Under the pieces are notes generated by a model. It made no database searches. It was not told the origin of the DNA and saw nothing but the letters and a program-made list of their open reading frames with translations. From Acidobacteriota bacterium (GTDB taxonomy: Bacteria; Acidobacteriota; Terriglobia; Bryobacterales; UBA6623): a stretch of DNA of 64,000 bases. Made by a program: the position numbers and the translations under genes. Positions 1,280 to 62,189 of this stretch are shown one piece after another. Location of the stretch: NCBI GenBank assembly GCA_016125275.1, contig WGMB01000006.1, forward strand, positions 62,001-126,000. Direction: 5' to 3'. Each line of letters opens with the position of its first letter. Position 1 is the stretch's first letter.

Positions 1280-2616
1280 GAATGGCCCAGCCCGAAAACG
1301 CGAACAACCAGACAGGAGTTTCCCGCCGCGCGGTGCTCCGCGGAGCCGGCGTTGCGCTCGCTCTGCCGTGGATGGAGTCGCTGCAGGCGGCGACGACCAA
1401 TAACGCGCCGGCGACGTTCCCGAAGCGGTTCGGCGTCCTGTTCATGGGCATGGGCGTGAACGAGGACCACTGGAGCGCGGAAGGCTCCGGAGCCGACCTC
1501 AAGCTCAGCAAGACGCTGTCGGTGCTGGAGCCGATCAAGCACAAGGTCAACGTCATCGACGGGCTGTTCAACAAGAACGCGACCGGGCAGGGCATTCACC
1601 CGGCGCAGACCGGCAATCTGCTGTCGGGCGCGCACATTCAGAAGGGCGCCATCATCCGCTCGGGCGTCTCGGTGGACCAGGCGATCGCCGGGCACATCGG
1701 GCAGGACACGCCGCAGTCGAGCCTGGTGCTGGCCTGCGACCAGCCGATGACGGGCTTCCACGAGACGAACTTCTCGCTGGCCTACAGCTCGCACATCTCC
1801 TGGCAGAGTCCGGACTCGCCGGTGCCGGTGGAGGTCTACCCGTCGCTGGCGTTCGACAACCTGTTCGAGAACCGCGGCACGATGCGCAACATGAGCGTGC
1901 TGGACCGCGTGAAGGATCGGACGCAGAGCTTGAACCGGCGGGTCAGCTCGACCGACCGGGCCAAGCTGGACGAGTACCTCACCAGCGTCCGCGAGGTGGA
2001 GAAGCGCGTGGAGCAGATGCGCAAGGGCCTGGAGAAGGCCGAGGAGCGCGCCAAGCAGACCAACCGGCCGGTGTTTACGATGGACCGCCCGGCGAACGGC
2101 CTGCCCGAGGATCTGCGCGACCACACGCGGCTGATGTGCGACATCATCGCGATGGCCTTCCAGACTGACCGCACGCGGGTGGCTTCGCTGTTGCTGGCGC
2201 GCGACCTGTCGGCGATGTACTACCCCTTCCTGGGCGTCAGCGACGGCCACCACGCGGCCTCGCACGACAACCTGTCCGACGGCTACGAACGCATCGCGAG
2301 CTTCCACCTCAGCCAGCTCGTGTATCTGGCCTCGAAGCTCGACAGCATGCCCGAAGGCGACGGCACGGTGCTCGACAACGCCTGCCTAATGTTCCTGTCG
2401 AACCTGTGGATCGGCCGCACGCACGACAACAGCCGCTTGCCGGTGGTGTTGGCGGGCGGGCTGGGCGGCACGCTCGAGACCGGGCGGGCCTTGAACTACC
2501 TGGACGCGGGCGACGACAACCGCAAGATGTGCAGCCTGTACCTGTCGATTATGGAGCGGATGGGGATTCCGGGCGACAGCTTCGGCGACGCCGAAGCGCC
2601 GCTGGAACGGCTGTAG
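1276..2616 (+). CDS. DUF1552 domain protein with Tat signal
   Basis: This 446-residue protein begins with a twin-arginine export signal (SRRAVLRGAGVALALP at about residues 15-30), so it is probably exported folded to the periplasm. The rest matches DUF1552, a family that almost always accompanies DUF1592/1588/1585 cytochrome-like proteins and is distantly related to DUF1501/sulfatase-like proteins. Its start overlaps the preceding stop by 4 nt, so the two are probably made in step and may work as a complex. No catalytic residue can be assigned. A strong terminator follows 22 nt downstream and closes the operon. Confidence 0.88.
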   Translation: MRMAQPENANNQTGVSRRAVLRGAGVALALPWMESLQAATTNNAPATFPKRFGVLFMGMGVNEDHWSAEGSGADLKLSKTLSVLEPIKHKVNVIDGLFNKNATGQGIHPAQTGNLLSGAHIQKGAIIRSGVSVDQAIAGHIGQDTPQSSLVLACDQPMTGFHETNFSLAYSSHISWQSPDSPVPVEVYPSLAFDNLFENRGTMRNMSVLDRVKDRTQSLNRRVSSTDRAKLDEYLTSVREVEKRVEQMRKGLEKAEERAKQTNRPVFTMDRPANGLPEDLRDHTRLMCDIIAMAFQTDRTRVASLLLARDLSAMYYPFLGVSDGHHAASHDNLSDGYERIASFHLSQLVYLASKLDSMPEGDGTVLDNACLMFLSNLWIGRTHDNSRLPVVLAGGLGGTLETGRALNYLDAGDDNRKMCSLYLSIMERMGIPGDSFGDAEAPLERL

Positions 2617-2638
2617 TCCGGCCGGCGACGGAAACGAG

Positions 2639-2673
2639 AAGGGCGCGCGGGAGACCGCGCGCCCTTTCTGTTT
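2639..2673 (+). terminator. Rho-independent terminator after the DUF1552 gene
   Basis: A 12-bp perfect stem (2639-2650 pairing with 2655-2666) closes a GAGA tetraloop and is followed by TCTGTTT. It lies between the DUF1552 stop and the ECF sigma gene, both on this strand. Confidence 0.85.
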
Positions 2674-2732
2674 GGCGGAGCGGGGCCGGGATCTTGCGTT
2701 CGGAGACCCGGCGGTTCGGGATTTTTGCGAAG

Positions 2733-3341
2733 ATGGCGGCGATGTCCGAAGACAATCCGTCTCCCGCCGCCAAGGCGCCCGTCGGCGAGGTCACGCAACT
2801 GCTGCGGATGGCGCAGCAGGGCGACCCGCAGGCGCCGGAACAGCTCTATCCGCTGATCTACGCGGAGCTGCGCCGCATCGCTCGGCGGCTGCTGGCCGGG
2901 GAACGGGCCGGCCACACGCTCGACACGGCGGGGCTGGTGAACGAAGCCTATCTGAAGCTCGCCGACCCCACCCAGAACCCGGCCGAAGGGCGCGCCCACT
3001 TTTTGCGGATCGCGGCCCGCGCCATGCGGCAGATTCTGGTGGATCACGCGCGGCGCAAGGGGGCCGAGAAGCGCGGCGGCGACTGGGCCCGCACCTCGAT
3101 GGACGAGGCGCGCCTGGGGCAGGCGCCGCGCGGCGAGGAGATGCTGGCGCTCGACGAGGCGCTCAACCGCCTGAACGAGGTGGACGAGAGGCTGCGCCAG
3201 ATCGTGGAGTTCCGCTTCTTCGCGGGCCTCTCCGAGACCGAGATCGCCGAGGCGCTCGGCGTGACGACGCGCACGGTGCAAAGAGAATGGGCCAAGGCGA
3301 GAGCTTGGCTGCACAAGGAGCTCTACGGCGGGCGAGAATAA
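2733..3341 (+). CDS. ECF-family RNA polymerase sigma factor
   Basis: The product is about 202 residues and resembles the ECF sigma factors of Planctomycetes and Acidobacteria that sit beside Ser/Thr kinases. Region 2 includes the segment AGLVNEAYLKL and the conserved ARAMRQILVDHARR. Region 4 is a helix-turn-helix, SETEIAEALGVTTRTVQREW. ATG 2733 was chosen; ATG 2742 is equally possible because neither has a clear ribosome site. The frame extends upstream through the terminator, which argues against an earlier start. The stop is 5 nt before the kinase gene, so the kinase fusion downstream is the likely control partner. No anti-sigma factor gene is visible. Confidence 0.9.
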   Translation: MAAMSEDNPSPAAKAPVGEVTQLLRMAQQGDPQAPEQLYPLIYAELRRIARRLLAGERAGHTLDTAGLVNEAYLKLADPTQNPAEGRAHFLRIAARAMRQILVDHARRKGAEKRGGDWARTSMDEARLGQAPRGEEMLALDEALNRLNEVDERLRQIVEFRFFAGLSETEIAEALGVTTRTVQREWAKARAWLHKELYGGRE

Positions 3342-3346
3342 GCTCT

Positions 3347-6300
3347 GTGGATTGGGGGCGAGTCTGGGAGCTGTTCGACGCGGCTCTGGAGAAGCCGGAC
3401 GCCGAGCGCGCCGGCTGGCTGGCCGAGGCCTGCGGCGCGGACGCGGAGTTGCGCGCCGAGGTCGAGGGCCTTTTGGCGGGTCATGACCGGCCGGGCGTGC
3501 TCGATCAGCATGCCATCACGGACCCCGGCGTGTTGGCCGCGCCCCGCAGCAGCGGCTCTCCCAGCGGCGCGGTCGGCCCCTACAAGATCGTGCGTGAGAT
3601 CGGCCGCGGCGGCATGGGTGTGGTCTATTTGGCCGAAGACCCTCGGCAGGGCCGCCGGGCGGCCATCAAGCTGCTGGCTCCGCACCTGAGCACGGACCCG
3701 CAGGCGCGCCGCCGGCTGCTGGCCGAAGCGCGGGCCGCGTCGCGGCTGGATCATCCGAACATCTGCGAGATTCTGGAGGTTTCCGAGACCGACGACGGCC
3801 TGCTGTACCTCGCGATGCCGTTCTACGAGGGCGAGACGGTGGCGCAGCGGATGACCGACGGGCCGCTGCCGCTGGAGCAGGCGCTGCGGATCGCGATGCA
3901 GGCCGCCGCGGGGCTGGGGCGAGCGCACGCCGCCGGTGTGGTCCACCGCGACATCAAGCCGTCGAACCTGATGCTGGCCGAAGACGGCTCGGTGAAGATC
4001 CTGGACTTCGGCGTGGCCAAGATGCACGGGGCGTCGTTGAGCGCGCCCGGCGTGAGGGTGGGGACGCTGGCCTATATGGCGCCGGAGCAACTGCTGGGCG
4101 AGGCGGTGAGCGCCGCGGCGGACCTGTGGGCGCTGGGCGTAACGCTGTATGAGATGACGGCCGGACGGAGGCCCTTTCAGGGCGACTACGAGCCGGCCAT
4201 CATGTACGAGATCCTCAACGAGGAGCCGCCTCCGACGCGCTCGATTCGGCCCGAGTTGCCGGCCGGGCTGGACCGCCTGCTGGGGGCTCTGCTCGAAAAG
4301 AACGCGGCGCGGCGGCTGTCCTCGGCGGCGGAGCTGTGCGAGGAGCTCGAAGCGCTGGAGCGCGGCGAGGAGATCGCGCTGGGGCCGGGCGGCCCGCAGA
4401 ACCTGCCGCATCCGCTAACGACCTTCCTCGGCCGCGAGCGCGAGATCGAGCAACTGGAGCGCATTCTCGACCGGGCCCGGTTGGCGACGATCACAGGGCC
4501 GGCCGGGGCGGGCAAGACGCGGCTGGCGATCGAGGCGGCGCGGCGACTGACGGCGCGGTTTCCGTCCGGGGTGTGGTTCGTGTCGCTGGAAGCGGCGCAG
4601 GGCGCAGCGCAGGCAGCCGCTTTGCTGGCTCGGGCGCTTGGGTTGGAGCCGAGCCCGGAGCGGCAGGTCTTTGACCAGATCGAGGACGCCCTGCGTGCGA
4701 AGAAGACGCTGCTGGTGCTCGACAACTGCGAGTGCATTCTGGAGTGCGTGCCGCGGCTGGCGCGCCTGCTGGAGGCGTGTCCGGAGCTGAAGGTGCTGGC
4801 GACGAGCCGCGCGCCGTTACGGATCGCCGGCGAGCGGGAGCTGAACGCGCCGCCGCTGGAGGTCCCCTCGCCGGAAGCCGGCCTGGCCGACCTGGAGAGG
4901 AACCAAGCCGTGGCGCTGTTTCTGGACCGGGCGCGGGCGGGGCTGCCGAACTTTGAGCTGACGGCGGCGAACGCGGCCAGCATCGCGGAGCTGTGTCGAC
5001 GCCTCGATGGGCTCCCGCTGGCGATCGAGCTGGCGGCGGCGCGCACCAAGCTGTTCTCGCCCAAGGCTTTGCTGGATCGCTTGGGGCAGCGGCTGGACCT
5101 GTTGGCGTCTCCCGGCGCGGATCGGCCCGAGCGCCACCAGACGCTGCGCAAGGCGGTGGAGTGGAGCCACGAGCTGCTCAACCCCACCGAGCGCAAGCTG
5201 TTCCGCCGGATGTCGGTGTTCCGCGGCGGCTGCGAGATCGAGTGCATCCAGGCCGTGTGCGGAGAGCTTCCCGAGGCGGAGTTGCTCGACGCGTTGGACG
5301 CGCTGTTGCAGCACAACCTGGCTCGCCGGACCGATGACGGCCAGGGCGAATCCCGGTTCGACATGCTGGAGACGATTCGCGAGCTGGCCGCCGAGCGCCT
5401 GTTGGCCAACGAGGAGGCCGACCGCGTGCGGCAAGCGCACGCCGAGCACTACCTGACGCGGGCCGAGACGGCCGCGGCCCAGATGACGGGGGCCCTGCAG
5501 GCGGAAGCGCTGGACCGCTTCGAGACCGAGATCCGCAACTGCGAGGCGGCGTTCGATTGGGCCATGGAGCGCGGCGACGCCGAGCGCGCCCTGCGCTTCG
5601 GCCTGGCGCTGTGGCGCTTTTGGCTGGTGCGCGGCCGCATCGAGGAAGGCTCACGGCGGCTGGGCGCGGCGCTGCAACTCGCTGAACGGACCGTCGAGAC
5701 GCGCTTGATCGCGAAGGCTTTGCACGCCAAGGCGACGCTCGACCAGAACCTGGGCGACAACGCCCGGGCGACGGCCGCCCTGGAGCGCAGCCTGGCGCTG
5801 TGGCGCGAGCTGGGCGACGACCGCGGGTTGGCCTCCAGTCTGCTCAACCAAGCCTGGGTGTTCCTGGAGCTCAGCCGGCTGGACGAGGCGGCGGCCTTGT
5901 CGCGAGAAGCCCTGACTCTGCTGGAGAGACTGGGCGACGAGCGGACGCAGGCGGTGGCCTGGAACAACCTGGGCTGGGCGGCGGCGTACCGCGGGCGTCC
6001 GCGGGCGGCTTTCGAGTGTTTCGACAAGGGCCTGACGCTGCGCAGGGGCTCGGGCGACCGCCGCGGCGAGGGCTTCGCATTGGCTTGCATGGCCTGGACG
6101 GAGCTGATGCAGGGCCGCTTCGCGCAGGCGCACCGGCTGATGGACCAAGCGACCCGGCGGCTGGTGCGTATCGGCGACCGCGTCCTGTCCGGCTTCGCGT
6201 TGGTGGGCCGGGCGATGATCCTGCTCGACGAGGGCCGCTTGGGCGAGGCCGAGGAGATCGCGGAGAAGGCCTTGCGAGAGTGGGAGCGGGGCGGCAACCG

Positions 6301-55423: not shown

Positions 55424-55849
55424 ATGGGCGAGGAAGTCGAGCTGACGATCTCCAGCCATCCTCGCTGGATGCGGCTGGTCCGGCAGGTGGTCCACGAGTT
55501 CGCCGTGGAGGCGGGCTTCGGCTCTCGGGACGCGCATGCCGTCACGCTGGCGGTGGGCGAGGCGATCGGCAACGTCATCAAGCACGCCTACCAGGGCCGC
55601 ACGGATCAGAAGTTTTCGCTCGCTTGTAGCGCGAACGGGGTGGGGTTGGAGGTTCGGATCGCGGACCACGGGGAAGCGTTCGATCCCATTTCGAGGACTT
55701 CATTGCCTCCCGACGAGCTGCGCCCGGGAGGTCGGGGCTTGTTTCTGATGCGCGCCATCATGGACGAGATGGAATACGAGCGCGATGGCGACATGAACGT
55801 GGTCCGCATGCGAAAATTTCGGAACACACCCGCCCGCCAAGATTCCTGA
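55424..55849 (+). CDS. RsbW-like anti-sigma factor/serine kinase
   Basis: The 141-residue GHKL ATPase has an N box (VGEAIGNVIKHAY), G1 (IADHGEAFDP) and G2 (GGRGLFLMRAIMDE), as in SpoIIAB/RsbW. Such proteins bind a sigma factor and phosphorylate a STAS partner. ATG 55424 was chosen; the open frame also allows GTG 55364. Only 4 nt separate it from the STAS gene, which is followed by Mla transporter genes. The bound sigma factor is not obvious here. Confidence 0.88.
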   Translation: MGEEVELTISSHPRWMRLVRQVVHEFAVEAGFGSRDAHAVTLAVGEAIGNVIKHAYQGRTDQKFSLACSANGVGLEVRIADHGEAFDPISRTSLPPDELRPGGRGLFLMRAIMDEMEYERDGDMNVVRMRKFRNTPARQDS

Positions 55850-55853
55850 AGCT

Positions 55854-56192
55854 ATGGAGATCAACGTCAAGCGCGACGGCGCCCGCTCGATCGTCTACGT
55901 CACAGGCGATATCGATCTGTACACCTCGCCGCAACTGCGCGAGACGGTGCTTGACCTTTTTCAACGACGCAACCAGCAGCGCGTCGTGCTGAATCTCTCC
56001 GAGGTTCACTACATCGACAGCTCCGGCATCGCGAGCTTGGTCGAAGGTTTGCAGGAAGCCAAGAAGCTGCACGCCCGGTTCATTCTGGTTGGGTTGAACG
56101 AGGCGCCGCGCCACGTGCTCGAGCTCACGCGCCTGCTCAACGTGTTCGAGATCGCCGCCTCCGAAGAGGAAGCCACGGCGGCGGACGCCTAA
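55854..56192 (+). CDS. STAS-domain anti-sigma factor antagonist (possible MlaB)
   Basis: The 112-residue STAS protein has the phosphorylation loop VHYIDSSGIASL, with Ser56/Ser57 at the site used in RsbV and SpoIIAA. It should be a substrate of the RsbW-like kinase directly upstream. It is also in the position of MlaB, the STAS protein of Mla lipid transporters, since mlaE begins 19 nt downstream. Either role, or both, is possible. Standard MlaB does not need a phosphorylatable Ser. Confidence 0.9.
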   Translation: MEINVKRDGARSIVYVTGDIDLYTSPQLRETVLDLFQRRNQQRVVLNLSEVHYIDSSGIASLVEGLQEAKKLHARFILVGLNEAPRHVLELTRLLNVFEIAASEEEATAADA

Positions 56193-56211
56193 GGGCTCGG
56201 ACCGCGCACGC

Positions 56212-57009
56212 ATGAGATTTCTGGAATCCGTCGGCAACTCGGCGATCGAGAAGATCGAGTACGTGGGCGGTCTTTCGATCCAGCTCTGGCGGGGCTGGCT
56301 GGCGTCCTGGCGGGTCAATCCGTTCACTGGGAGCCGCCTCCGCTGGCGATCCACGATCGACCACATGGCGGTCGTCGGCGTCCACGCTCTGCCGGTGGTC
56401 TGCCTGATCGCTGGCGCGACGGGGCTGATCCTGGCCTTCCAGGGCGGCGCGGAGCTGCGGCGCTTCGGCGCGCTGCAGTTCGTCATCAACCTGGTGGGCG
56501 TCTCGATGACACGCGAGTTGGGCCCACTGATGACGGCCATCGTGGTGATCGGCCGCTCAGGGTCATCCTTCTCGGCAGAGATCGGCACGATGGTGGTGAC
56601 GGAAGAGGTTGACGCCTTGCGCACCATGGCGCTCGATCCCATCGAGTTTCTCTTGGCGCCCAAGTACGTGGCGATGATGGTGATGCTGCCGTGCCTGACG
56701 ATCGCGGCAGTGGCTTCGGGCATCCTCGCCGGCGGCATCTTCACCTACTTCACGATGGGGATGTCGCTGCAAGTCTACCTGCGGGCAACGCTGGACGTGC
56801 TGGTGCTGCGCGACATCGTCACGAGCATGATCAAGGCCGTTGGCTTTGGCACGATCATCGTGCACGTGGGCTGCTTCGAGGGCTTTCATGTCTCCGGCGG
56901 CCCGATCGGCGTCGGCCAGTCGACAACGGCTGCGGTGGTCAAGTCGATCTTTCTGGTCGTTCTGGCGGATCTCCTCTTTACGGCGTTCTTCTACCTGTTC
57001 TGGAGATGA
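56212..57009 (+). CDS. mlaE: MlaE-family ABC lipid transporter permease
   Basis: The 265-residue inner-membrane permease has about 5-6 hydrophobic segments. FQGGAELRRFGALQFV and ELGPLMTAIVVIGRSGSSFSAEIGTMVVTEEVDAL are the MlaE/YrbE signature. It works with MlaF and the MCE protein MlaD to move phospholipid between inner and outer membrane. It overlaps mlaF as ATGA and is 19 nt after the STAS gene. Confidence 0.95.
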   Translation: MRFLESVGNSAIEKIEYVGGLSIQLWRGWLASWRVNPFTGSRLRWRSTIDHMAVVGVHALPVVCLIAGATGLILAFQGGAELRRFGALQFVINLVGVSMTRELGPLMTAIVVIGRSGSSFSAEIGTMVVTEEVDALRTMALDPIEFLLAPKYVAMMVMLPCLTIAAVASGILAGGIFTYFTMGMSLQVYLRATLDVLVLRDIVTSMIKAVGFGTIIVHVGCFEGFHVSGGPIGVGQSTTAAVVKSIFLVVLADLLFTAFFYLFWR

Positions 57010-57833
57010 GCAAGGAAGTCCACCCCGCGCTCCGGAAGCGCCTGCGGGCCGACGGCGTGGCGCCGCTGATCTCCGTGCAGGACCTCGTGGTGCGCTATGG
57101 CGACAAGGAGGTCCTCAAGTCCGTCAACCTCGACATCTACCCGGGAGAGACCATGGTCATCCTCGGCGCCAGCGGTTCGGGGAAGAGTACGCTGCTGCGG
57201 CACCTCGAGGCGTTGGCGCGGCCGACCTCAGGGCACATCTATATCAAGGGTGTCGACGTGGCGACGTGTACGAACGAGGAGCTCCAGCGTGTCCGCCGCA
57301 TCATGGGCGTCTCGTTCCAGAGCGCCGCGATGTTCAACTCCATGACGGTGGGGGACAACGTCGCCCTGCCCCTGCGCGAGCACACCAAGCTGGCCGAGCC
57401 GACCATCAAGCTGATGACGCAGATGAAGCTCTCGCAGGTCGGGCTGGAAGGCGCCGAGAACCTGTTTCCGGCGCAGCTCTCCGGCGGCATGAAGAAGCGC
57501 GCTTCGGTGGCGAGGGCCTTGGCGATGGACCCGGAGATCCTGGTCTTCGACGAGCCGTCGGCAGGCCTCGACCCCATCATCGGCGCGGGCATCGACCAGC
57601 TCATCCTGCATCTCAAGCAGGCTTTCAAGATGACCATCGTGGTCGTCACGCACGAGATGGCCAGCGCCTTCCTGATCGCGGACCGGATGTGCATGCTGCA
57701 TCAGGGCAAGATCATCGCCATCGGCACGGTGGAGGAGATCAAGCGCCACGAGCACCCTCGCGTTCGGCAGTTTCTGCAGCGGATCCCCGACGAGCCGGGC
57801 TCCGCCGACGCGAACTATCTGACGGGTCTCTGA
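57006..57833 (+). CDS. mlaF: MlaF-family ABC ATP-binding protein
   Basis: The 275-residue ATPase has Walker A GASGSGKST, Q loop FQSAAMFNSMTV, signature LSGGMKKRASVARAL, Walker B ILVFDEPSAGLDP and switch His in VVTHEM. The SGGMKKR form of the signature is typical of MlaF. ATG 57006 overlaps the mlaE stop; the longer open frame is inside mlaE. It is coupled with the permease and MlaD genes. Confidence 0.95.
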   Translation: MSKEVHPALRKRLRADGVAPLISVQDLVVRYGDKEVLKSVNLDIYPGETMVILGASGSGKSTLLRHLEALARPTSGHIYIKGVDVATCTNEELQRVRRIMGVSFQSAAMFNSMTVGDNVALPLREHTKLAEPTIKLMTQMKLSQVGLEGAENLFPAQLSGGMKKRASVARALAMDPEILVFDEPSAGLDPIIGAGIDQLILHLKQAFKMTIVVVTHEMASAFLIADRMCMLHQGKIIAIGTVEEIKRHEHPRVRQFLQRIPDEPGSADANYLTGL

Positions 57834-57869
57834 GTCGCGCATGGAGCGCTGGTATGCTGGAGGCGTTGA

Positions 57870-58853
57870 ATGAGTAACGAAGCCAAGGTCGGGCTCTTCG
57901 TGGTGGTCGCCCTGGCGATCTTCGTCGTGACGTTCCTGTCGGTCGCCACGATCCAGCTTTCCGGCAACAAGGTTCCCTACAAGGCTCATTTCAAGTTCGC
58001 CGGCGGCCTCGACGGCGGCAAGCTGGTGCGCTTCGGCGGCCTCAAGGCGGGCGTCATCACCGACGTGGGCCCGTCGCCCGACGATCCGACCATGGCCGAG
58101 GTCCGCTTCGAGCTGCGCGAGGACGTGCCGATCAACGCCGATTCGATCGCCTCGATCTCCAGCCTCAACGCGCTGGGCGACAACTACTTGGAGATTTCGC
58201 CCGGCTCCAAGGACGCCGCGCGGGTTCCGCCCGGCGGACTGGTGAAGTCCGAGGAGGCGATCACCTTCAGCGATATCACCAAGAAGGTGGCCGGCGTGAC
58301 CGACACGGCCCAGGAGCTGATGGTTGACGTCAAGGGCGACATCGAGCTGATGATCGCCGACCTGCGCGACCTCACCCACAACCTGCAGGAGCTGACCAAC
58401 GAGGAGAACCAGCGCAACGTCGCCGGTCTGCTGCGCAACGCCAACGAGATGGTCGAGACGCAGGCGCCGAAGATCGACCAGATCACCGATCAGATCGCCG
58501 CCCTGCTGACCAAGGTGGACGCCACCGTGGACGACCTCCGCAAGGTCGCCCAGACCGCCGACAAGACCGTCTCCAACGTCGACCAGACGGTGACGGAGAT
58601 CCGCGAGCCGATCAAGAAGGATCTGGCCGAGCTCGAGGAGACGCTCGCCGAGGCCCGCCTGATGGTGGAGGACCTGCGGTCGCTGGTCGCGGTGAACAGC
58701 GGGGACATCAACGAGACGATCGAGAACTTCCGAGCGACTTCGGAGAACCTCGAACAGTTCAGCGACGAGATTCGCCAGCGTCCCTGGAGTCTGTTGCGGA
58801 CCAAACCCAAGGCCGATCGCCAAGTGCCCGTGGGCGCCGGTGCGGCGAAGTAG
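57870..58853 (+). CDS. mlaD: MlaD-family MCE protein
   Basis: The 327-residue protein has one N-terminal membrane anchor (residues 6-30), then an MCE domain (about 38-120, YKAHFKFAGGLDGGKLVRFGGLKAGVI). A long amphipathic, probably coiled helix follows (about 135-300, heptads such as LTKVDATVDDLRKVAQTADKTVSNV). It forms the periplasmic hexameric ring that receives lipid from MlaE. The helical extension is much longer than in E. coli MlaD and may form a tube as in PqiB or LetB. TATGCT and GGAGG precede its ATG. Confidence 0.93.
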   Translation: MSNEAKVGLFVVVALAIFVVTFLSVATIQLSGNKVPYKAHFKFAGGLDGGKLVRFGGLKAGVITDVGPSPDDPTMAEVRFELREDVPINADSIASISSLNALGDNYLEISPGSKDAARVPPGGLVKSEEAITFSDITKKVAGVTDTAQELMVDVKGDIELMIADLRDLTHNLQELTNEENQRNVAGLLRNANEMVETQAPKIDQITDQIAALLTKVDATVDDLRKVAQTADKTVSNVDQTVTEIREPIKKDLAELEETLAEARLMVEDLRSLVAVNSGDINETIENFRATSENLEQFSDEIRQRPWSLLRTKPKADRQVPVGAGAAK

Positions 58854-58868: not shown

Positions 58869-59396
58869 ATGCGCATGATGGCCTGCATGCTGCTGACCGC
58901 CGCCTGCCTCCTGGCGGAAGAGCCTCGCTTCACCCCGGACAACCAGATGCTGCGGCCCGAGGGCTACCGCGAATGGGTGTTCGTGGGCTCGTCGCTGGGC
59001 ATGAGCTACAACGAAGGCGCCGCATCCAGCTCCCGCAAGCAGGACTACCACGTGGTGTTTCTGGAGCCGAAGGCCTGGAGGGAGTATCAGAAGACGGGCA
59101 AGTTCCCCGAAGGAACCGTCCTGATGATGGAAGTGTACTCGGCCGGCCAGCGCGAATCGATCAATCGGGCCGGCAGCTTTGCGGACAAATTCTTGCGGGT
59201 GGAGGCGGCCGTCAAGGACTCCAAGCGCTTCGACGGCGCCTGGGCCTACTTCGACTTTGGCGGCCCGGCGGCCGAAGGCGGCCTGAAGGAGCGTTCGACG
59301 GCGTTTGCCAAGGAACGCTGCTGGGCTTGCCACAACGAGCACGCCGAGACGGACAACGTCTTTACCCAGTTCTACCCCCGGCTCGGCGCCCGGTGA
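58869..59396 (+). CDS. Cytochrome P460 family protein
   Basis: The 175-residue protein has a short signal peptide (MLLTAACLLA, cut near residue 16) and the conserved P460 body (GYREWVFVGSSLGMSYN and GTVLMMEVYSA). Near its end is the heme motif CWACH (Cys151, Cys154, His155), followed by AETDNVFTQFYP. P460 cytochromes oxidise hydroxylamine or nitric-oxide-like compounds in some organisms. In Acidobacteria the role is usually unknown. It lies 15 nt after mlaD and overlaps the kinase gene as GTGA, so it may be co-transcribed with both. Confidence 0.9.
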   Translation: MRMMACMLLTAACLLAEEPRFTPDNQMLRPEGYREWVFVGSSLGMSYNEGAASSSRKQDYHVVFLEPKAWREYQKTGKFPEGTVLMMEVYSAGQRESINRAGSFADKFLRVEAAVKDSKRFDGAWAYFDFGGPAAEGGLKERSTAFAKERCWACHNEHAETDNVFTQFYPRLGAR

Positions 59397-60397
59397 GCGG
59401 CTTCGTCCTGAGCGCGACCACGGCGCCGGAGCTCCTGACCCGTCGCGGGATCGCCGGCCCTTTTGCATGCCGCGAGCTGGGGGGAGGTGTCTCGAACGTC
59501 GTCGTGCTGGTCGAGTCCCCGGCCGGCCCCTTTGTCCTGAAACAGGCCCTGCCGCAGTTACGCGTGCGCGACGAATGGCTGGCGGACCGCAACCGCATCT
59601 TTCGCGAGCGTGACGGCCTGCTGGCCGCTGCGAGCCTGCTGCCGGCCGGCTGGATTCCGAAGGTGCTGTGGAGCGCCGACGAGGATTACCTCTTCGCAAT
59701 GGAGGCCTTCTCTCCCGAGGCCGAGTCCTGGAAGGACGAGCTGCTGCGGGGCGAGACCAGCGCCGAAAAGGCCCGCCAGGCCGGCTTGGCGTTGGGACTA
59801 ACGGTGCGTGGCTCCTGGCGGAACCCCGAGTTGGAGCGCCAGTTCGGTGATCAGCGGGCGTTCGATCAGCTCCGCACCGATCCCTACTACCGCACCATCG
59901 CCCGCCGCCATCCGGCTATCGCCGACGCCGTAGGGGAGTGGGTCGAGGCCGTTACGCCGCTACGGCTGGCGCTGACGCATGGCGACTGGAGCCCCAAGAA
60001 CATGGTCTCGCTCGGCGAGCGGCTGCTGTTCATCGACTACGAGTGCATCCACTTCGGCGACCCTTCCTACGATGCGGCCTTTGCCCTCAACCACTTGATC
60101 CTCAAGGGCGTCCACCGCTCCCAGCAGCAAGCCGAATACCACCATCTAGCGCGAGTCTTCCTGACCTGGACGCTGGCCGTGCTGCCCGCCGAAGCCTTGC
60201 CGCGCTTCGAGTCGGCAGCGATGAGGCACCTGGCCTTCCTGTTGTTGGCGCGCATCGACGGGAAGTCGCCGGCCGAGTATCTCCGGGATGAAGCGGTTCG
60301 CGACCGGCTGCGGCGGACAGCGCTACAACTGATCGCCGACCGGCCCTCGACGCTGGAGGGAGTCTTGGCGACGGTCGAGCGTTTTCAGGCAAGCTAG
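59393..60397 (+). CDS. Aminoglycoside phosphotransferase-family small-molecule kinase
   Basis: The 334-residue kinase shows the Brenner motif LTHGDWSPKNM with catalytic Asp198 and the metal-binding Asp215 in FIDYECIHFGDPSYDAA. The N-lobe has GGGVSNVVVLVE and the Lys of LKQALP. The sequence resembles methylthioribose kinase-like and homoserine kinase-like proteins more than true drug-resistance enzymes. It starts at GTG 59393 overlapping the cytochrome stop, and is followed 8 nt later by an enolase-like gene, so it may phosphorylate a small hydroxy acid or sugar. Confidence 0.85.
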   Translation: MSGFVLSATTAPELLTRRGIAGPFACRELGGGVSNVVVLVESPAGPFVLKQALPQLRVRDEWLADRNRIFRERDGLLAAASLLPAGWIPKVLWSADEDYLFAMEAFSPEAESWKDELLRGETSAEKARQAGLALGLTVRGSWRNPELERQFGDQRAFDQLRTDPYYRTIARRHPAIADAVGEWVEAVTPLRLALTHGDWSPKNMVSLGERLLFIDYECIHFGDPSYDAAFALNHLILKGVHRSQQQAEYHHLARVFLTWTLAVLPAEALPRFESAAMRHLAFLLLARIDGKSPAEYLRDEAVRDRLRRTALQLIADRPSTLEGVLATVERFQAS

Positions 60398-60405
60398 AGG
60401 GTCGC

Positions 60406-61704
60406 ATGTCGTCCCGCATCCGCTCCGTAGACGCTTGGCAGATCCTGGATTCCCGGGGCAATCCTACGCTCGAGGTCGAGATCGGCCTCGAAAGCGGCGT
60501 CGTGGGCTCCTTCCAAGTCCCCTCGGGGGCCTCGACAGGCCGCCATGAGGCCGTGGAGCTGCGCGACGGAGCGGGCGGACGCTATCGCGGCAAGTCCGTG
60601 CTGCGCGCTGTGGAGAATGTGCGGACTGAGATCGCCGCGGCGCTGATCGGACTGCCCGCGGACGACCAGGCGTTGGTCGACCGGACGCTGATCGAGCTCG
60701 ACGGCACGGCCCAGAAGGCTCGGCTCGGAGCCAACGCCACCTTGGGAGCTTCAGGCGCGGTCGCCCGGGCGGCGGCGCGGCAGACCGGCGTCCCGCTGTG
60801 GCGCTATCTGGCCGGCGACCGGCCGGCCGCCCTGCCCGTGCCGATGGTCAACATCCTCTCCGGCGGCCTCCACGCCGGGCGGCAGATCGAGTTCCAAGAC
60901 TTCTTGGCCGTTCCGCACGGCTTCTTCTCGTTCGCGGAGGCGATCGAGGCCATTGCGCTGACCCATCGAGCCATGGGCGAGTTGCTGGGCGAGCAAGGCT
61001 TCGAGCTGACCGGCGTGGCTGACGAGGGCGGCTTCGGGCCCCGGCTGCAGTCGAATCGGCAGGCGTTGGACCTGCTGCTGACGGCCATCGAACGCGCCGG
61101 CTTCGAGCCGGGCGAGCAGATCTCGGTAGCCATCGATGTCGCCTCCAGCCACTTTCACCGCGACGGCGGCTACGACCTGCGCAGCGAGAATCGCTGGCTG
61201 AGCGAAGACGAGATGATCGACTTGCTGGCGGAATGGACCGGCCGTGCGCCGGTTTTGTCGATCGAGGACGGGCTGGCTGAGGACGCCTGGGACGGGTGGC
61301 GCAAGCTGACCGATCGGCTCGGCGACCGCTGCCGGCTGATTGGCGACGACTTCTTCGTCACCAACCCGGAACGCCTGGAGCGCGGCATCGAAGCCGGCGC
61401 CGGCAACGCGGTGCTGGTGAAGATGAACCAGATCGGCACGCTCACCGAGACATTCCGCGTGATCGACAGGGCCCGCGAAGCCGGCTTCACGGCGGTGATC
61501 TCGGCGCGGTCGGGGGAGACGGAGGACGACTTTCTGGCCGATCTCGCCGTGGCCAGCGGAGCCGGCCAGATCAAGGTCGGCTCGGTGACACGTTCCGAGC
61601 GGCTGTCGAAGTACAACCGCTTGCTGGCGCTGGAAGCCCGCACCGCCCGGACCGGCGAAGGCCCGGGGAATTTCGAGGTTTCCCGGCGCCTGATGCTGGG
61701 CTAG
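60406..61704 (+). CDS. Divergent enolase-superfamily protein (enolase paralogue)
   Basis: The 432-residue protein aligns with enolase end to end: SRGNPTLEVEI, VPSGASTG, ADEGGFGP (Glu207), the metal ligands in AIDVASS, SIEDGL and IGDD, KMNQIGT (Lys339) and GQIKVGS (Lys390). Two active-site residues differ. The SHRSGETED motif reads SARSGETED (Ala367 in place of His), and the conserved QEF reads QDF (Asp165 in place of Glu). A standard enolase is expected elsewhere in the genome. The reaction may be a related dehydration of another phosphorylated acid. It is downstream of the APH-type kinase. Confidence 0.88.
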   Translation: MSSRIRSVDAWQILDSRGNPTLEVEIGLESGVVGSFQVPSGASTGRHEAVELRDGAGGRYRGKSVLRAVENVRTEIAAALIGLPADDQALVDRTLIELDGTAQKARLGANATLGASGAVARAAARQTGVPLWRYLAGDRPAALPVPMVNILSGGLHAGRQIEFQDFLAVPHGFFSFAEAIEAIALTHRAMGELLGEQGFELTGVADEGGFGPRLQSNRQALDLLLTAIERAGFEPGEQISVAIDVASSHFHRDGGYDLRSENRWLSEDEMIDLLAEWTGRAPVLSIEDGLAEDAWDGWRKLTDRLGDRCRLIGDDFFVTNPERLERGIEAGAGNAVLVKMNQIGTLTETFRVIDRAREAGFTAVISARSGETEDDFLADLAVASGAGQIKVGSVTRSERLSKYNRLLALEARTARTGEGPGNFEVSRRLMLG

Positions 61705-62189
61705 AAGAGGCCCTGACAAAAGGCCGCCAGCAACCCCGCCGCCCCGGCGGTGACGAACAACATCCCCAGGCAGCCGCTCTTGGCGGCGGCGTTCGCCGGA
61801 GCGCCCGCGATTCGCGCGGGGACGGCCGTCCTGGCCTCGGGCGAGTCAGCCGCGATCGCCCGCGCCGTGGCTCCGGCCGCCCGGATCCGCCTAGCGGCAT
61901 CCTCGGCCCTCGCTTGGTCCACCCCGTCAAGGACCAGGGCGGGCGTCGACTCGACCAGCTCCTTGGAGTCCTTGAGTCCCAGCCCGGTGATCTCGCGGAC
62001 CGCCTTGATGACCTCGATTTTGCGGTCCCCGGTCCATTCCAGCACGACTGCGGCGGGGCCGCCCCGGGCCGGCGACGGGACCGCGCGGGATTCCGCGAGC
62101 CGCCGGCTGATGGCTTGGTGCTCCTCGACCGAGATCTCGCCCCGCGAGAGGCGGAGGTCGGCGATGTGCTGGGGGTTCTGGGGCTCCAT
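61701..62189 (-). CDS. SHOCT-like/L7-L12 C-terminal-domain membrane protein
   Basis: The 162-residue protein starts with a short segment like SHOCT (LRLSRGEISVEEHQAI, about residues 12-27). Residues 47-112 match the C-terminal domain of ribosomal protein L7/L12: KIEVIKAVREITGLGLKDSKELVE is nearly identical to it. A C-terminal hydrophobic segment (about 140-158) should anchor it in the membrane. This is not a ribosomal stalk protein. The L7/L12 domain may bind translation factors at the membrane. It is 17 nt downstream of trpD and its stop shares CTAG with the enolase gene. Confidence 0.8.
   Translation of the reverse strand: MEPQNPQHIADLRLSRGEISVEEHQAISRRLAESRAVPSPARGGPAAVVLEWTGDRKIEVIKAVREITGLGLKDSKELVESTPALVLDGVDQARAEDAARRIRAAGATARAIAADSPEARTAVPARIAGAPANAAAKSGCLGMLFVTAGAAGLLAAFCQGLF

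Follow-up and report, generated by a model that had tools for sequence, protein, structure and literature searches.

A predicted kinase–STAS partner-switching module encoded with an MlaE/F/D-type MCE transporter in Acidobacteriota

In Escherichia coli, Thr52 of the STAS protein MlaB lies near the centre of its interface with the transporter ATPase MlaF, and a T52E substitution weakens binding (PMC7367683). Phosphorylation of MlaB has been hypothesised (PMC5016091); phosphorylation of Thr52 is raised in both papers, and in the sections available neither names a kinase or a phosphatase. Among the matches listed for open PMC titles and abstract openings, a body of text that leaves most subscription papers and all preprints outside, none linked a kinase or phosphatase to an Mla-type operon, and no word beginning 'Mla' occurs in the main text of one review (PMC8256260). 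Here we describe a five-gene block in a 64,000-nucleotide (nt) stretch of an Acidobacteriota bacterium genome (GCA_016125275.1, contig WGMB01000006.1, positions 62,001 to 126,000, forward strand; hereafter the window), in which genes for an RsbW-like kinase and a STAS protein directly precede mlaE-, mlaF- and mlaD-like genes. We consider it probable that this block specifies a lipid ABC transporter of the MCE type in the inner membrane (MlaE–MlaF–long MlaD), together with a dedicated partner-switching module that acts on its STAS subunit.

All five genes lie on the + strand and are closely spaced: kinase, 4 nt, STAS, 19 nt, MlaE, an ATGA overlap, MlaF, 36 nt, MlaD-like. Open reading frame (ORF) calls, Pfam and NCBIfam returned the ORFs and spacings as an earlier note on this DNA had described them, and the STAS phosphorylation loop that it had called intact (Ser56/57) is present as D55-S56-S57-G58. 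The features of the block are as follows.

55424–55849, + strand: GHKL serine kinase of the RsbW/SpoIIAB type, 141 amino acids (aa) from ATG (PF13581, HATPase_c_2, E 5e-30)
55364, + strand: alternative kinase start, an in-frame GTG that would lengthen the kinase ORF
55854–56192, + strand: STAS protein, 112 aa, MlaB-like by place and SpoIIAA-like by sequence (PF01740, E 1.5e-21)
56016–56027, + strand: loop D55-S56-S57-G58 in the STAS protein, presumed to be the phospho-acceptor, with S56 aligned with E. coli MlaB T52
56212–57009, + strand: MlaE-type permease, 265 aa (PF02405, E 7.5e-70)
57006–57833, + strand: MlaF-type ATPase, 275 aa (ABC_tran; best NCBIfam model PRK11831 MlaF, E 1e-64, below cut-off)
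57810–57830, + strand: C-terminal tail of MlaF, in which Y271 aligns with Y261, and L275 with L265, of E. coli MlaF
57870–58853, + strand: MlaD-like MCE protein, long (327 aa), its C-terminal part helical (PF02470, E 1.3e-15, residues 34–112)

With an MlaE permease, an MlaF-type ATPase and an MCE protein encoded together, the block specifies an MlaE/F/D-type MCE ABC transporter; TIGR00996 and TIGR04430 (NCBIfam) also match the MlaD-like protein, both below cut-off. Pfam models for MlaA (PF04333) and MlaC (PF05494), which match in E. coli and Caulobacter controls, gave 0 matches in the window's own genome (7.55 Mb, 20 contigs, 97.6% complete). Therefore, of the Mla naming in the earlier note, the MlaE/F/D module stands and the complete Mla pathway does not.

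The gene order is conserved well beyond this genome. Searching 61 genomes with the window's MlaE identified 17 others carrying a window-type MlaE (62–83% identity), 16 from the same family and one (G166) from another family of the order. All 17 loci have the order kinase, STAS, MlaE, MlaF, with MlaD next in 16 within the stretch read. The big sister family has distant MlaE genes only (best matches 33–40%), and no kinase and no STAS gene was matched within about 1.5 kb in any of the 12 loci read from it. A species-wide scan gave 133 relatives, and our figures for 80 loci refer to the best 80 of these 133. Class K (49 loci) has a kinase and a separate STAS gene. Class B (9 loci, of which L109 lies at a contig edge) has a separate STAS gene without any kinase being found, and in class C (16 loci) MlaE is fused to a STAS-like region. 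Another 4 loci have neither gene, and L086 and L097, both cut by contig edges, were placed in no class. The 49 class K loci exclude the window itself (L001) and L030, a near copy of L087, both of which are included where 51 kinase rows are given. In class C, the MlaE open frame of 358–446 aa leaves room for an N-terminal STAS region, and there is no kinase; the STAS profile weakly matches this region in 9/16 loci and, in two members searched with Pfam, the PF13466 match exceeds cut-off in L136 and falls short of it in L123. Class K is found mostly in Acidobacteriota, and also in KSB1, Omnitrophota and one Nitrospirota genome (Thermodesulfovibrionales). The earlier note had proposed looking for this gene order across Acidobacteriota, and it is thus kept in every relative with a window-type MlaE and in 49 of the 80 scan loci, spanning four phyla. 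Outside the window's clade, 41 of 42 loci (L006–L035 and L054–L065) had no kinase match. No relatives were found in viral contigs.

The kinase, STAS, MlaE and MlaF proteins show covarying pairwise distances (rho 0.74–0.83) across 44 of the 49 class K loci, the comparison leaving out L091, L096, L098, L108 and L139; co-inheritance of the block would produce this pattern. An MlaE tree of 124 rows, arbitrarily rooted and with several weak joins, puts classes K, C and B (except E. coli) together on the same side of a 99/98 branch. That side holds 79 rows, including one with neither kinase nor STAS, and the other holds 44 STAS-less rows together with E. coli. Kinase-less Acidiferrales rows are nested inside kinase-bearing rows, so the kinase was probably lost there. 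The kinase–STAS state may be the older one, with the kinase-less forms (STAS alone or a STAS–MlaE fusion) arising by loss, a direction taken from the arbitrarily rooted tree. Upstream of two kinase-less STAS–MlaE blocks, from UASB270 and KSB3, lies a divergent AAA+ gene labelled by eye as NtrC-like (L110:3096-4172 and L114:3142-4227).

The kinase scores below the cut-offs of the RsbW equivalog models (66 versus 155 bits for TIGR01924; 74 versus 145 bits for NF003144), and its match in the PDB is RsbW (6m36, E 1.3e-11). In an alignment of 32 kinases, comprising the window and 31 of the 49 loci, the sole invariant columns are the ATP-site residues E43, N47, D78, G80, G100 and G102 (D-x-G and G-x-G), the N and G boxes of GHKL ATPases. 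The loci left out of this alignment (L098 and 17 others) were all checked separately. All six residues are present in 51 of 52 kinase rows compared and in 48/49 class K loci. The exception (L098:4195-4620) is a degenerate kinase that has lost the N box and the second glycine box and has no Pfam match, beside a STAS protein with an intact DSSG loop.

The STAS protein is over cut-off for the anti-sigma factor antagonist model TIGR00377 and its best PDB match is TM1442. It reaches 26 bits with the MlaB model NF033618, for which the cut-off is 90, and aligned to E. coli MlaB it has 18/97 identical residues, with S56 opposite T52. A survey with the same model family described MlaB as sparsely distributed (PMC10665443), and given this low score STAS proteins of the present type may have been missed. 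The putative acceptor loop is strongly conserved: D-S-S is present in 49/49 class K loci (DSSG in 40, DSSA in 9) and class B proteins have DSAG (5) or DSSG (4). Since it is present in both classes, the D-S loop accompanies a separate STAS protein, with or without a kinase nearby. The D-S-S motif is found in 0/16 class C loci, either at this place or elsewhere in the stretches cut out. Glu64, in the helix after the loop, shows a similar distribution (51/51 K rows, 9/9 B rows and 2/16 C rows). As it is kept without a kinase, it is probably read by the transporter, and its conservation pattern suggests that Glu64 contacts the transporter.

The C-terminal extension of E. coli MlaF docks at the MlaF–MlaB interface through Tyr261, Leu265 and Leu266 (PMC7367683). 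The window MlaF ends in ANYLTGL, so that by alignment Y271 corresponds to Y261 and L275 to L265. Of the 43 non-redundant class K and B rows, 91% have Tyr and 75% have Leu at these tail positions. A [YF]xxx[LIVM] tail is present in 33/46 class K and 8/9 class B MlaF proteins, compared with 1/15 in class C and 3/44 in the remaining rows; the three tail-positive remaining rows include L097, the relative at a contig edge, and L033, which has a STAS gene. Of the other 13 class K tails, 12 read [YF]-[LIV]-x-G-[AF].

Partner-switching modules include a phosphatase, and a SpoIIE/PP2C gene lies on the same strand in 16/49 class K loci (17/50 counting the near duplicate). In 11 of the 16 it precedes the kinase, at a distance of about 0.85 kb in L108, and in 5 it follows MlaD. 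The corresponding counts are 1/10 for class B (L122) and 0/16 for class C; the 42 loci outside the window's clade are an unfair control for PP2C because only about 1.5 kb per side was available. In L122, from a Halodesulfovibrio metagenome-assembled genome (Desulfovibrionaceae), a GAF–PP2C gene (1732-3381) directly precedes STAS and MlaE, with no kinase found nearby. PF07228 was detected in 8/8 PP2C neighbours tested with Pfam, seven of which carry GAF, FHA-GAF, HAMP or CHASE2 domains. Apart from L122, the PP2C-bearing loci come from KSB1, Omnitrophota, Nitrospirota and Acidobacteriota, and two are unassigned. In three Omnitrophota loci (L134, L135 and L143) the PP2C gene directly follows the MCE gene, and the L135 protein (L135:7282-9171) has a CHASE2 domain (Pfam).

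The window's own genome has two MlaE genes. Beside the second, on contig C14, are MlaF and MCE genes, and the 13 kb read there gave no match to kinase or STAS. PF01740 identified only two STAS genes in the genome, and a third match, to PF13466, is below cut-off. The second STAS gene, on contig C15, is also preceded by a kinase (L003:7635-8755, about 181.6–182.8 kb of C15), and the genes beside this pair look by eye like glycine-cleavage genes. This pair is perhaps a generic switch of the genome. The earlier note had reasoned that its proposal would fail if another STAS gene served Mla; the only other one has its own kinase elsewhere. Among 21 PF13581 matches in the genome, the kinases of the two kinase–STAS pairs score 105 and 91 bits and all others 35 or less.

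Building on the observed genes and their order, the conservation of residues at the catalytic and acceptor sites, the MlaF tail and, in other genomes, the neighbouring phosphatase genes, we infer phosphorylation, a STAS–MlaF contact, an on/off direction and a signal. We propose that the STAS protein would hold the ATPase on the permease, keeping the transporter on. The adjacent RsbW-like kinase would use ATP to phosphorylate S56 of the STAS protein, in the middle of the contact surface, turning the transporter off, and may also do so by holding the unphosphorylated STAS protein. The phosphate would be removed, and transport restored, by a SpoIIE/PP2C phosphatase bearing a GAF, FHA-GAF, HAMP or CHASE2 sensor domain; other lineages have its gene next to the block, whereas in this genome it is presumably located elsewhere. 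The predicted direction (kinase off, PP2C on) is by analogy with E. coli, where T52E has the effect described above and MlaB is needed for MlaF assembly (PMC7367683, PMC5016091). Fusion of STAS to MlaE in relatives further ties the STAS protein to the transporter. We lean, by a little, towards the more specific proposal that a complete module of sensor-PP2C, kinase and STAS has a trans-envelope lipid ABC transporter as its direct target, without a sigma factor, such that reversible serine phosphorylation of an MlaB-like subunit switches lipid traffic post-translationally.

Complexes were approximated by read-through chains, for example kinase*STAS with the stop read as Gly. The kinase*STAS chain (L074, 77 rows) gave a mean predicted local distance difference test score of 86 and a predicted template modelling score (pTM) of 0.78, which suggests a defined relative placement in the model. 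Its halves match SpoIIAB (1til, Z 17.5) and TM1442 (1vc1, Z 18.6), and the match to Pseudomonas aeruginosa MlaB has Z 13.2. The STAS*MlaE*MlaF chain (L071, 62 rows) gave a domain score of 88.8 and a pTM of 0.58, with no negative control.

Several observations weigh against a phospho-switch on the transporter. The kinase*STAS pTM stands without a negative control, and the lower pTM of the STAS*MlaE*MlaF chain is no support for the STAS–MlaF placement. Ser is kept in 9/9 separate STAS proteins that lack a kinase (one at a contig edge), so its retention is no proof of phosphorylation. In class C, the residue aligned with S56 is Gly in 8, Ser in 4, Thr in 3 and Ala in 1 (Ser/Thr in 7/16), in an alignment that is unsure because the STAS profile finds this region weakly. 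L098 retains the block despite its degenerate kinase. In E. coli, T52A stays bound yet is inactive (PMC7367683, PMC5016091), so T52 has another role as well. No PP2C gene was found within the stretch in 33/49 class K loci, contig ends limiting the count, and none of the 7 PF07228 matches in the own genome lies within the window's block. The feature is also patchy: among 149 evenly drawn Acidobacteriota genomes, only the own genome and G060 have a STAS profile score above 130 bits, the next being 84. Caution is required in reading the MlaF tail as STAS-linked, as the STAS-less MlaF rows are also phylogenetically distant; Veillonella MlaF, described as having a shorter tail and no MlaB (PMC10665443), counts on the same side, and differential MlaF positions fall in the helical subdomain in 11/30 cases, which is not significant (p 0.07).

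The earlier note had left two alternatives, a phospho-switch controlling the transporter and a sigma-factor switch co-transcribed with it. We favour the former because the order is kept in four phyla, one kinase locus in three also has a PP2C gene, in a related group MlaE is fused to a STAS-like region, the search of the block yielded no sigma gene and the other STAS gene has its own kinase. In a classical anti-sigma switch, the kinase would bind a sigma factor encoded elsewhere, with the STAS protein as its antagonist and the transporter as a co-transcribed envelope-stress output. The nearest structures, RsbW/SpoIIAB for the kinase and TM1442/SpoIIAA for the STAS protein, are what such a switch would have, and a target could exist, since the genome has sigma-70 family genes (open frames of 260 and 318 aa, which look FliA/SigF-like). 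However, none of the 11 matches to SigB/F/G models in the genome is over cut-off, and own-genome sigma queries against all loci at a loosened threshold found no sigma gene within a block and just two weak matches in flanks, both on the other strand (L092, 25 bits; L089, 19 bits). Kinase and STAS instead stay with MlaE–MlaF across phyla, up to fusion of the STAS domain with MlaE, and the genome's other kinase–STAS pair is free for such a role. A switch of this kind is therefore unlikely here.

Signalling could also run in reverse, with the state of the transporter setting the amount of free STAS protein, which in turn frees the kinase for another target, so that the block reports the lipid state of the envelope. 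In SpoIIAA/RsbV systems the STAS protein does act upstream of the kinase's output, and the same gene set would serve either direction. We consider this quite unlikely, as we noticed no third, conserved target in the blocks (flanks were surveyed non-exhaustively) and the recurrent neighbours tested were PP2C and a PqiC-type lipoprotein. Finally, the STAS protein might be a fixed assembly subunit whose Ser serves folding or ATPase coupling, the kinase being an accessory with no role in transport. Retention of Ser in kinase-less class B proteins, the bound but inactive T52A protein of E. coli and the degenerate L098 kinase would all fit. Such a purely structural role is nevertheless very improbable given the near-universal integrity of the kinase ATP site (51/52 rows), the PP2C neighbours in 16/49 loci and the absence of D-S-S from all 16 fusion-class loci, none of which showed a kinase nearby.

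The block is flanked upstream by rsmB on the other strand and downstream by a cytochrome P460 gene (Pfam/NCBIfam). No sigma-70-like promoter site was found at the block and terminators were at chance level. In other loci, ten genes 3′ of MlaD were run through Pfam, seven short and three long. Five of the seven short genes (L117, L083, L099, L115 and L116) are over cut-off for PF03886 (PqiC-type lipoprotein), which falls just short of cut-off in L111 and has no match in L080. The long genes encode a rotamase, a hydantoinase-like protein and a CheW/response-regulator protein. Further downstream in the window, an ORF for an APH-family phosphotransferase (59396-60397) lies between the P460 gene and enolase, and the enolase gene and an opposite-strand gene for a small protein with a ribosomal L7/L12 C-terminal domain (60406-62189) have ORFs that share four bases.

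Because candidates for kinase, substrate, phosphatase and target all come together in these blocks, the question of MlaB phosphorylation becomes testable in vitro. If the proposal is true, partner switching would control a transporter directly, allowing a pump to be switched without a change in gene expression and envelope lipid traffic to be regulated quickly in several phyla.

E. coli MlaFEDB likewise combines a STAS protein with MlaF, MlaE and an MCE protein, its T52 corresponds to S56 and the Tyr/Leu spacing of the MlaF tail is equal. In contrast to the present block, no kinase or phosphatase is annotated next to mlaFEDCB apart from kdsC, a sugar phosphatase gene located further along, and the E. 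coli pathway includes MlaA and MlaC, for which the window's genome has no match. E. coli MlaB is also described as shorter, at 97 aa and without the last strand and helix of SpoIIAA (PMC7367683), compared with 112 aa for the window STAS protein.

The long MCE protein and the PF03886 gene of other loci make the block resemble the Mpc (Mla-Pqi chimeric) system, which is described with MlaF and MlaE homologues, STAS linked to MlaE, an MCE protein that is likewise long (331 aa) and a PqiC-like lipoprotein, MlaC not having been detected (PMC12436622). The difference is that STAS is fused to MlaE in Mpc, and the word 'kinase' is absent from the main text of that paper (PMC12436622). The window has the P460 gene where other loci have the PqiC-type lipoprotein.

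A serine kinase also controls a STAS protein, which acts more downstream, in the SypE–SypA pair of Vibrio fischeri, where the order appears, from the account given, opposite to that of SpoIIAA/RsbV systems (PMC10120452). That pair was studied through biofilm formation, not through a transporter, and SypE is described as both kinase and phosphatase (PMC10120452). There is also a regulatory likeness to RsbU–RsbW–RsbV and SpoIIE–SpoIIAB–SpoIIAA, with a GHKL kinase and a D-S-S-G STAS protein in one block and a PP2C in a third of kinase loci. Unlike those systems, no sigma factor was found in the block here, and the constant partners of the kinase and STAS protein are the subunits of an ABC transporter.

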